Source: Betaproteobacteria bacterium (GTDB taxonomy: Bacteria > Pseudomonadota > Gammaproteobacteria > Burkholderiales > Burkholderiaceae_C). From it: a stretch of DNA of 64,000 bases. The notes below the pieces were generated by a model. That model did no database searches and was not told the DNA's origin. It was given only the letters and a program-made list of their open reading frames with translations. Shown piece after piece: positions 46,545 to 56,314 of the stretch; the stretch's first letter is position 1, and every line of letters starts with the position of its first letter. The stretch is from assembly GCA_025358155.1 (NCBI GenBank), contig JANYKR010000027.1:1-64000 (forward strand). The letters run 5' to 3'. Made by a program: the position numbers and the translations under genes.

Positions 46545-47066
46545 ATGGCTTTGCTCCCCATCCTCTGCTTTCCCGATCCTCGCCTGCACACCGTGGCCTA
46601 GCCGGTGCAAGCGTTTGACGCCAAGCTCGCTCGCTTGATCGACGACATGATCGAGACGATGTACGAGGCCGACGGTGTCGGCCTGGCGGCCACGCAAGTG
46701 GACGTGCACCTGCGCTTGCTGGTGATGGACACCTCCGAGGCTCGCGACCAGCCGCAGGTGTTGATCAACCCCGAGTTGGTCGCCCACAGCGAGGAGTGGA
46801 AACTCAACGAAGAGGGCTGCCTGTCGGTGCCCACGATTTACGACCAGGTTGAACGCTACGCCTGGGTCACGGTGCGGGCCACCGGGCGCGATGGTGAACC
46901 GTTCGAGTTCAAGGCCGAGGGCCTGGCGGCGGTGTGCGTGCAGCACGAGATGGACCATTTGCTGGGCAAGGTGTTTGTCGAGTACCTCAGCCCGCTCAAA
47001 CGCGAGCGCATCAAGACCAAGATGATCAAGAAGGCGCGTGATGAACAGGGCCGGCGCGGCCGTTGA
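46545..47066 (+). pseudogene. def: Peptide deformylase gene interrupted by an in-frame amber codon
   Basis: Peptide deformylase removes the formyl group from new proteins. From the ATG at 46545 the frame reads MALLPILCFPDPRLHTVA and then TAG at 46599-46601, where related proteins usually have Lys (AAG to TAG is one change). It continues PVQAFDAKLARL to the normal end. All three motifs are intact: GVGLAATQ, EGCLSV and QHEMDHLLG. A GTG at 46605 could restart translation but would lose the first strand and lacks a ribosome-binding site. It may be a pseudogene with another def elsewhere, a readthrough case, or a sequencing error. It is followed within three bases by fmt. Confidence 0.85.
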
Positions 47067-47068
47067 CC

Positions 47069-48073
47069 GTGCCAGACACCGCACTGACCTGCAGGCCGCC
47101 GCGCGTCGCCTTCGCCGGCACGCCTGAGTTTGCCGCCGCCGCGCTGGCCGCTCTGCTGGCCGCCGGCCACCCCGTGCCGCTGGTGCTGACCCAGCCAGAC
47201 CGGCCCGCCGGTCGCGGCTTGAAGCTGCTGCCCTCTCCTGTCAAAGCACTCGCGCTGCAGCACGGCCTGGCACTGGCCCAGCCCCGCAGCCTGCGGCTGG
47301 ACGGCAAGTATCCCGGCGATGCCCAAGCCGCCCAGGTCGCGCTGCTGGCGGCTCAGGCTGACGTGATGGTGGTGGCGGCCTACGGCCTGATCCTGCCGCA
47401 GTGGGTGCTTGACCTGCCGCCGCTGGGTTGCCTCAACATCCATGCCTCGTTGCTGCCGCGCTGGCGCGGCGCCGCACCGATCCACCGCGCAGTCGAAGCC
47501 GGCGATGACCGCACCGGCATCACCTTGATGCAGATGGATGCCGGGCTCGACACTGGCGACATGCTCTTGCTGGCGCAAGAAGATGTGCGCGCCGATGACA
47601 GCACCGGCAGCCTGCACGACCGGCTGGCGCTGCTGGGCGCCCGCCTGGTGGTCGAGGGGCTGGCCCGGCTGGGCGATGGCCGGGGCTTGGCGCGCATGCC
47701 GCAGCCGACCGAAGGCGTGAGTTACGCCCACAAGATCAGCAAGGCCGAGGGGGTGATCGACTGGACCGAGCCGGCGGCGCAGATCGAGCGCAGGTTGCGG
47801 GCGTTTGACCCGTTCCCCGGCGCCAGCTTTGGGCTCGACGGCGAGGCCGTCAAGCTCTGGCGCGCCCGGCTGCGGCCCGAGGTGTGCGGCAAGCCCGGCG
47901 AAGTGCTGCGGGCGCAGGGCAGTGAATTGACGGTGGCCTGCGGCGAGGGCGGGCTGGACCTGCTGGCGCTGCAGCGCCCGGGCGGGCGCCGGCTGGAGGT
48001 GGCGGCATTCTTGCAATCGCTGCAAGGCCGGCCGGCATTGCTCGGGCGTGTGCTGGGCTCTGCCGGCAACTGA
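47069..48073 (+). CDS. fmt: Methionyl-tRNA formyltransferase
   Basis: Fmt formylates initiator Met-tRNA with 10-formyl-THF. The 334 residues include [14 protein letters not shown] near 15, [11 protein letters not shown] near 43, [24 protein letters not shown] near 127 (catalytic Asn/His), [18 protein letters not shown] and the C-terminal OB-like domain with FDPFPGASF. The GTG at 47069 follows the def stop; a TTG at 47063 is a possible earlier start. It is cotranscribed with def and probably htpX. Confidence 0.96.
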
Positions 48074-54107: not shown

Positions 54108-55349
54108 TCACAGCAGCGCAGTGCCTCCGCAAGCCTCTGACAAAGCCCGCACCCGCGCGGCCGCAATCAACTGTCCAATCGCCGGGCCCGCCAAGCATTT
54201 GGCCGCCGCAGCCTCAGCCAATGCGGTGGTGTCGACCGCCCGCGCCAGCACCAGCGCCGCCGCCAGCCGCGCGCGCTGCGGGTAGGGGGCGTCTTGCAGC
54301 CCGCGCCGGCCGCGGGCGTCGCACTCGCAGGCCAGCAGCAGGCCGGCAAAACGGTCTGGCCGGCGCCAGGCGTCGCAGCGGTCGAACAAGCGGATGGTGG
54401 CGGCCGCGTCCAGCGTTCCGCTGCGGTGGATGTTGCCGTGCTCACGCGCGGTGAGGTCGGCCAGTTCGCGGCAGTCGGTGGGCACACGCCAGCGCTCACC
54501 CACCACCCGGGCCAGTTTGGCGCTGCGCGCCTCGTGGCCGATGTGGCGCGGCAGTTCATCGGCCGGGGTGAGTCCTTTGCCCAGGTCATGGCACAGGCAG
54601 GCGTAGCGCACCGCCAGCGGCGCGTCCAGCCGGGCCGCCATCTGCAGCACCAGCATCAGGTGCGCGCCGGTGTCGACCTCGGGGTGGTGGGCCTCGGGCT
54701 GGGGCACGCCCCAGAGCCGGTCTACCTCGGGCAGCAGCCGGGCCAGTGCGCCGCAGCCGCGCAGCACCTCGAACATGCGTGCCGGCTGGGCCGTCATCAG
54801 CCCTCGGGACAGCTCTTGCCAGACCCGCTCGGGTACCAGGTGATCGAGCTCGCCCTCGGCCACCATCTGCGCCAGCAGCGCCTCGGTCTCGGGCGCGATG
54901 CGGAAATCAGCAAAGCGTGCGGCCAGCCGGGCCAGCCGCAGCAAGCGCACCGGGTCGTCGACAAAAGCCGGGCCGACATGGCGCAGCAGCCGCGCTGCGA
55001 TGTCGCGCAGGCCGCCGAACGGGTCGGTCAGCGCACCGGTTTTCGGGTCTTCGGCAATCGCGTTGAGGGTCAGGTCGCGGCGGGCCAGGTCTTGTTCCAG
55101 CGTGACCTCGGGCGAGGCCTGCACCACAAAGCCCAGGTAGCCCCGGCCGGACTTGCGCTCGGTGCGGGCCAGGGCGTACTCCTCCTTCGACTTCGGATGC
55201 AGAAAGACCGGAAAGTCGCGGCCGACCGGGGTGTAACCGGCCGCCACCATCTGCTCGGGCGTGCTCCCCACCACCACCCAGTCGCGGTCGTTGACGGGCA
55301 GGCCGAGCAGCCGGTCGCGCACCGCTCCGCCGACGACAAAACAGTTCAT
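54108..55349 (-). CDS. cca: Multifunctional CCA tRNA nucleotidyltransferase
   Basis: Cca adds or repairs the 3' CCA of tRNAs. The 413 residues have the class II nucleotidyltransferase N-terminus (GGAVRDRLLGL, NDRDWVVVG with catalytic Asp), RRDLTLNAIAED near 92 and DDPVRLLRLARLAARF near 132. A C-terminal HD domain (CHDLGKGLTP near 256) brings phosphodiesterase/phosphatase activity in the long form. The start overlaps the stop of the upstream gene as ATGA. Confidence 0.95.
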   Translation of the reverse strand: MNCFVVGGAVRDRLLGLPVNDRDWVVVGSTPEQMVAAGYTPVGRDFPVFLHPKSKEEYALARTERKSGRGYLGFVVQASPEVTLEQDLARRDLTLNAIAEDPKTGALTDPFGGLRDIAARLLRHVGPAFVDDPVRLLRLARLAARFADFRIAPETEALLAQMVAEGELDHLVPERVWQELSRGLMTAQPARMFEVLRGCGALARLLPEVDRLWGVPQPEAHHPEVDTGAHLMLVLQMAARLDAPLAVRYACLCHDLGKGLTPADELPRHIGHEARSAKLARVVGERWRVPTDCRELADLTAREHGNIHRSGTLDAAATIRLFDRCDAWRRPDRFAGLLLACECDARGRRGLQDAPYPQRARLAAALVLARAVDTTALAEAAAAKCLAGPAIGQLIAAARVRALSEACGGTALL

Positions 55350-56314
55350 CGGCGGCGCGGGTCAGGCGGATTGAAGTGCGCGGCCAGGATGTCGAGTGAG
55401 GCCGGCGTGATGCCCAGCGCTGCCAGCCCGGGCAGCTGGCCGCTGGCGATGTTGGGCACCCGCATCGACAGTACGTTGTCGCGCGACATCAGCGGCTCGC
55501 CCGGCATCAGGCCCATCGCTGCGGCCTGCAGCAGGCCCAGGGCCTCGGGCAGGCCCAGCACCGGCCGGGCGCAACCGGCCATCGCGCCAACCCGCTGCAC
55601 GATCTGCTTGAGTGTCAGCACCTCGGGGCCGGCGCATTCGACCACCGGGCTGTCCGGGCCCTGACCGGCCAGGCTGTTGACCACCGCCTGGGCCACGTCG
55701 CCCACCCACACCGGCTGGAACTGCGCGCCGGCCCCGGCCAGCGGCAGCACCGGAAAGACCCGCTGCAGCGACACGAACAGGTTGGTGAAGCGGTCTTGCG
55801 CGCCAAAGACCACCGACGGCCGCAGCAGGGTGATGTCCAGCCCTTGAGACGGCGTCTGACCGGACGCGTGACCCTGGCCGGACCCGTAGAGCTGCGCAGC
55901 CTGCTGCCAGACCGCCTCGCCGGCGGCCTTGCTGCGCAGGTAGGCCGAGGGCGCATGGCTGGCCACGCCGAGCGCGCTGACATGCACCACCCGCTGGACG
56001 CCTGCCGCAGCGCAGGCCGCCGCCAGGTGGCGCGGCAGTTGCACATGGACCCGGTCGAAATCGGCCTCGCTGCCGTGCAGCACCGCCACCAGGTGCACCA
56101 GCGCATCAGCGCCGTCCAGCACGGCGCGCTGGGCAGCGGGGTCGTGGATGTTGCATTCGACCAGGTCGACGGTGGGCAGCAGTTGCACTTGCCGGCCGCT
56201 GGCAAGGCGCCGGGTCGGCACCACCAGCCGGGTTTGACGGTTGTGCTCAAACAGCCGCTCGATGACGCTGCGACCGACAAAGCCGGTGCCGCCAGTGATG
56301 ACGATTTTTTTCAT
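55346..56314 (-). CDS. NAD(P)-binding epimerase-like protein (NDUFA9-type atypical SDR)
   Basis: The 322 residues begin KKIVITGGTGFVGRSVIERL and continue with HLVAVLHGS, VVHVSALGVASHAPSAYLRSKAAGE and LLRPSVVFGAQDRFTNLF. This layout is that of the complex-I NDUFA9-like atypical SDRs. The catalytic Tyr/Lys are in AYLRSKA. The partner in cells is unknown. It lies between slt and cca in one minus-strand unit, an arrangement common in betaproteobacteria. Confidence 0.88.
   Translation of the reverse strand: MKKIVITGGTGFVGRSVIERLFEHNRQTRLVVPTRRLASGRQVQLLPTVDLVECNIHDPAAQRAVLDGADALVHLVAVLHGSEADFDRVHVQLPRHLAAACAAAGVQRVVHVSALGVASHAPSAYLRSKAAGEAVWQQAAQLYGSGQGHASGQTPSQGLDITLLRPSVVFGAQDRFTNLFVSLQRVFPVLPLAGAGAQFQPVWVGDVAQAVVNSLAGQGPDSPVVECAGPEVLTLKQIVQRVGAMAGCARPVLGLPEALGLLQAAAMGLMPGEPLMSRDNVLSMRVPNIASGQLPGLAALGITPASLDILAAHFNPPDPRRR

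Follow-up and report, generated by a model that had tools for sequence, protein, structure and literature searches.

An in-frame amber codon in the fmt-linked peptide deformylase gene of a draft bacterial genome that carries a second, uninterrupted def gene

Duplicated housekeeping genes that have recently become pseudogenes through a nonsense codon form a known general class. For peptide deformylase, the accessible part of one study reports more than one enzyme in 48% of species across 5,042 reference genomes, and describes an accessory Def2 in Vibrio cholerae that supports growth without Def1 (PMC12690207). According to the accessible part of a second study, a def allele whose missense change reduces activity helps Methylobacterium against formaldehyde (PMC13131673); this shows that cells can tolerate reduced deformylase activity, and nothing in the present analysis connects that allele with the def gene described here. 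No nonsense-interrupted def gene linked to fmt was found among the literature titles and abstract openings searched, which is no proof of absence.

The window, by which we mean the whole 64,000-nucleotide stretch of DNA that was analysed, makes up nearly all of one contig (C30, 64,482 bases) in a draft genome of 330 contigs that is 98.3% complete. Translation of the plus strand from 46545 to 47066 gives a def frame, here called Def1, which runs for 173 codons from an ATG to a terminal TGA (47064-47066) and contains a single internal stop, a TAG at codon 19 (46599-46601). A preliminary description of this sequence had reported the TAG, three intact catalytic motifs and an intact fmt directly after def, and each of these points was borne out. 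The fmt gene, encoding methionyl-tRNA formyltransferase, follows directly on the same strand (47069-48073; the GTG at 47069 is the presumed start, and the longest open reading frame runs from 47063). It is intact, scores 256.8 bits against TIGR00460 and is the sole above-cut-off match in the genome. The part of Def1 that follows the stop (codons 20-173 and the terminal TGA, 46602-47066) is free of frameshifts and retains motif I as GVGLAATQ, motif II as EGCLS and motif III as QHEMDHLLG, in agreement with the patterns GxGxAAxQ, EGCxS and QHExDHLxG (motifs I-III as defined in the accessible part of PMC12690207). From codon 20 on, Def1 scores 171.8 bits against TIGR00079, for which the cut-off is 103.95; what it lacks is a complete frame that includes the N-terminal segment, owing to the TAG at codon 19.

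When the stop was replaced by X, Def1 aligned with its orthologues from residue 1 across the stop, with an overall identity of at most 80.6%. In comparisons with four relatives, the 18 residues ahead of the stop were 72-94% identical and the 30 that follow it 63-70%. As the alignment runs through the stop with similar sequence on both sides, Def1 is no chance reading frame. It ranked 16th from the most unusual end in a set of 97 rows (the window included, duplicates and rows below 225 bits removed), with two residues unique to it (median one) and four departures at 90%-conserved sites (median two). Upstream of Def1 lies a minus-strand gene that we take, from its sequence, to be LysM-like. This gene and fmt were both found at the def loci of 16 of 16 near relatives, a count that concerns their presence and not their order gene by gene, and a chimeric contig is therefore unsupported.

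The residue at codon 19 is Lys in 65%, Arg in 19%, Ala in 7% and Gln in 6% of 96 de-duplicated Def1 orthologues, and the site is thus a variable one. AAG is the commonest codon here (61 of 128 aligned rows, some Def2 rows and duplicates included), and TAG occurs in none of the same 128 rows. The preliminary description had held that relatives carry a residue at this position and that the stop arose most simply from a Lys codon by a change of AAG to TAG. The first part stands, with Lys and AAG indeed the commonest, and an AAG to TAG origin is plausible; as ancestry, however, it is not established, the ancestral codon being uncertain because codon 19 varies among orthologues. The segment before the stop (codons 1-18, plus strand, 46545-46598) is conserved: positions 1, 4, 6, 7, 10, 11, 14 and 18 are identical in all 96 orthologues, in the case of residue 1 partly by construction, and positions 12 and 13 are conserved in 98%. 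All of these residues, those at positions 12 and 13 included, are kept in the window, where residue 8 is a Cys in place of the Arg found in 92% of orthologues. Stops flagged in six of the 128 rows proved to be terminal stops of proteins of 167-171 residues; a TAG counted in the Def1 of G085 was likewise rejected as a natural terminal stop.

A broken copy of a normally essential gene beside an intact fmt presents an apparent paradox, for which the preliminary description had suggested, among other explanations, a second def elsewhere. A search of the whole genome found such a gene on another contig (G000:C68:42852-43325). This gene, Def2, has no internal stop, carries the motifs GAGLAAPQ, EGCLS and QHECDH, scores 169.1 bits against PF01327 and exceeds the cut-offs of both NF001159 and TIGR00079 (161 residues scanned); the genome thus holds a second uninterrupted def with the catalytic motifs. 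The gene upstream of Def2 on this contig is, as we read its sequence, presumably ligA, and a relative of this ligA-like gene adjoined Def2 in 11 of the 16 stretches fetched from relatives. The presence of a second def removes the essentiality paradox, which is resolved in an ordinary way. We consider it probable that a recent nonsense mutation struck a redundant def and that Def2 covers deformylation. The nonsense codon, if real in the organism, would have been gained recently at a permissive position near the 5' end, and Def1, which would then not be made, would most likely be a null allele or a very young pseudogene. Def2, with all of its catalytic motifs, is predicted to be active and sufficient, and would deformylate the proteins that are formylated through the intact Fmt.

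The distribution of the two genes in relatives bears on how readily such a loss should be accepted. Both def types are present, by profile range, in 21 of 21 genus genomes (20 others and the window's own), the second def of G007 being split over two contigs. Of the 43 matches in these genomes, all but the window's Def1 are free of internal stops; across these 43 matches and the 128 aligned rows the disabling mutation is unshared by orthologues, as is characteristic of a pseudogene. Forty near genomes, the window's included, gave 78 def matches (two in 36 genomes, three in G007 and one in three genomes), and again the window's Def1 alone had an internal stop. In a family sample of 200 evenly sampled genomes that includes the window's, Def1 was found at E values up to 1e-35 in 196, among the matches listed. 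The four negative genomes, among the same matches, were G128 (55% complete), G147 (76%), G139 (76%) and G142. The last was considered as a Def2-only relative and rejected because its second def match is a piece of 81 bases at a contig start. All four absences are explained or explainable by incompleteness, and no convincing loss of Def1 with Def2 kept was found among the sampled family relatives in the matches listed, making a true fixed loss less probable a priori.

The same sample suggests which copy is usually missing. A single PF01327 match at 1e-10 was found in 27 of the 200 family genomes, among the matches listed, and all of these except G139 and G142, 25 in number, had a Def1 match among the matches listed. 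In 25 of 199 relatives no deformylase other than Def1 was detected among the matches listed; some of these genomes are incomplete (for example G044, 65%). It would appear that Def2, not Def1, is normally the copy that goes undetected in single-copy family genomes. For this reason a real loss of Def1 would be mildly notable, and an assembly artefact is kept in play.

Selection on the remainder of Def1 was assessed over codons 20-173, where mean pN/pS was 0.34 for the window against relatives and 0.35 among 16 relatives. As pN/pS shows no decay in the downstream codons, the stop is either recent, or an assembly error at one base, or else an allele of a minor strain. An old, decayed pseudogene was rejected, as the downstream frame is intact and its pN/pS resembles that of the relatives. 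The pN of the window's Def1 is the highest of 17, and its nonsynonymous ratio (divergence of the window from relatives, divided by that between the relatives) was 1.45 with four relatives (bootstrap 1.11-1.89) and 1.25 with 16 (1.05-1.54). The corresponding ratios were 1.12 (1.00-1.25) with four relatives and 0.97 with 16 for fmt, and 0.99 for Def2. Def1 ranked second by this ratio among 29 open reading frames of the window (30 rows, as Def1 was entered twice), of which at least one (54294-55661) is likely a shadow frame. In a protein tree of 30 rows with duplicates absent, its end branch was 0.30 against a median of 0.11; three end branches were longer (0.33, 0.43 and the outgroup) and one was equal. 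Synonymous divergence was also raised (pS 0.458 against 0.343), so that pN/pS is not raised and the argument for relaxation is weak. Def1 is mildly faster at nonsynonymous sites, which would fit, weakly, a slightly relaxed constraint.

The main rival to a recent nonsense mutation is that the TAG is a consensus artefact, either an error at one base or an allele of a minor strain taken into the consensus of the draft, with Def1 being an ordinary gene in most cells. We regard this as possible but distinctly less likely. It is in keeping with the draft state of the 330-contig assembly, with a single isolated change at a variable site whose flanking sequence is conserved on both sides, and with the lack of any other interrupted Def1 in the 21 genus genomes or of a convincing loss in the matches listed for the family sample. 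The remainder of the window argues the other way. The scan for in-frame stops compared the window with four relatives, 59-75 kb from each, using a codon-position filter that may miss stops near gene ends and covers genes with relatives in the compared stretches; without this filter, shadow frames dominated the output, the DNA being G+C-rich. Five sites were left by the filtered scan, four of them antisense to larger open reading frames, so that 46599 alone remained as an in-frame stop within a gene, and the contig therefore does not look error-rich. A scan of the window for frameshifts against relatives was noisy and gave ambiguous pairs only. The slight acceleration of Def1 would also be unexpected from a one-base error, but this is a weak point.

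The preliminary description had also raised the possibility of a restart at the GTG at 46605-46607 (plus strand), 3 nt past the TAG. Initiation at this codon would open a frame of 153 amino acids that holds all three catalytic motifs, and could in principle give a working deformylase without residues 1-20. We find this unlikely. The segment that would be dropped is highly conserved, with eight of positions 1-18 invariant and two more at 98% in 96 orthologues, and given this conservation a GTG-started product is unlikely to be a working enzyme. Codon 20 aligns to chain residues 18-42 in 18 of the 18 best PDB matches, so the solved enzymes have a longer N-terminus than the restart would leave. 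There is no evident Shine-Dalgarno sequence before the GTG, although the native start lacks a clear one too.

Readthrough, in which a near-cognate or suppressor tRNA would read the amber codon and yield low-level full-length Def1, is also unlikely and ranks behind restart. The pN/pS of the codons after the stop, like that of relatives, would be consistent with it, as would the many residues tolerated at codon 19, and an unseen suppressor is conceivable in an assembly whose tRNA set is incomplete, with no tRNA-Tyr, -Trp or -Ile genes seen in the draft. The translation machinery points in the opposite direction: RF1 (prfA) scores 487.6 bits and is intact, without stops; the 39 tRNA matches read by ARAGORN in this incomplete draft set, where the preliminary description had advised looking for amber suppressors, included no CTA anticodon; and a search of the genome for CTA-type tRNA patterns returned tRNA-Arg(tct) only. 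TAG also ends other genes, terminating 6 of the window's 42 homology segments (an approximate count, as segment calling is imperfect). The filtered scan left no further amber within a gene, and codon 19 is TAG in none of the 128 aligned rows. The marks of a recoded or read-through amber (an amber tRNA, a missing RF1, recurrent in-frame amber codons) are thus lacking in the draft, with its incomplete tRNA set. In the same assembly, tRNA-Ser(tga) was read with equal score at the start of three contigs (C78, C131 and C225; L161, L162 and L163), as expected when a repeat breaks the assembly. Least probable of all is that the amber is a retained low-level readthrough switch, with full-length Def1 made only under inefficient termination and Def2 serving routinely. 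General recoding of TAG, which the preliminary description had already judged unlikely, is rejected given the intact RF1, the other genes ending in TAG and the lack of any further in-frame stop.

If the stop is real, the lineage would rely on Def2 alone, Def1 otherwise being the copy kept in the family sample. The two enzymes of this genome differ at the residue equivalent to E. coli R97, where Def1 has Tyr and Def2 has Arg. At this position (EGCLSVPTIY, 46812-46841), Tyr is found in 95 of 97 Def1 proteins and Phe in two, and Arg is found in the genome's own Def2 (L051:4802-5386) and in 16 of 16 Def2 relatives. With a real stop, the strain would be expected to show greater sensitivity to deformylase inhibitors than its relatives do, because of this difference at the position that determines actinonin sensitivity in V. 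cholerae (accessible part of PMC12690207).

With its single stop, a frame that is otherwise intact and a paralogue apparently intact elsewhere, Def1 resembles known young nonsense pseudogenes. It departs from the expectation set by the family sample, in which Def2 and not Def1 is otherwise the copy undetected in single-copy genomes, among the matches listed. As far as the accessible part of PMC12690207 describes V. cholerae, its Def1/Def2 pair is matched here, with two full-motif deformylases and one fmt in both. The residue at the R97-equivalent position is reversed, as it is the accessory Def2 of V. cholerae that has the actinonin-tolerant Tyr, and, unlike in V. cholerae, the canonical copy here carries a nonsense codon.
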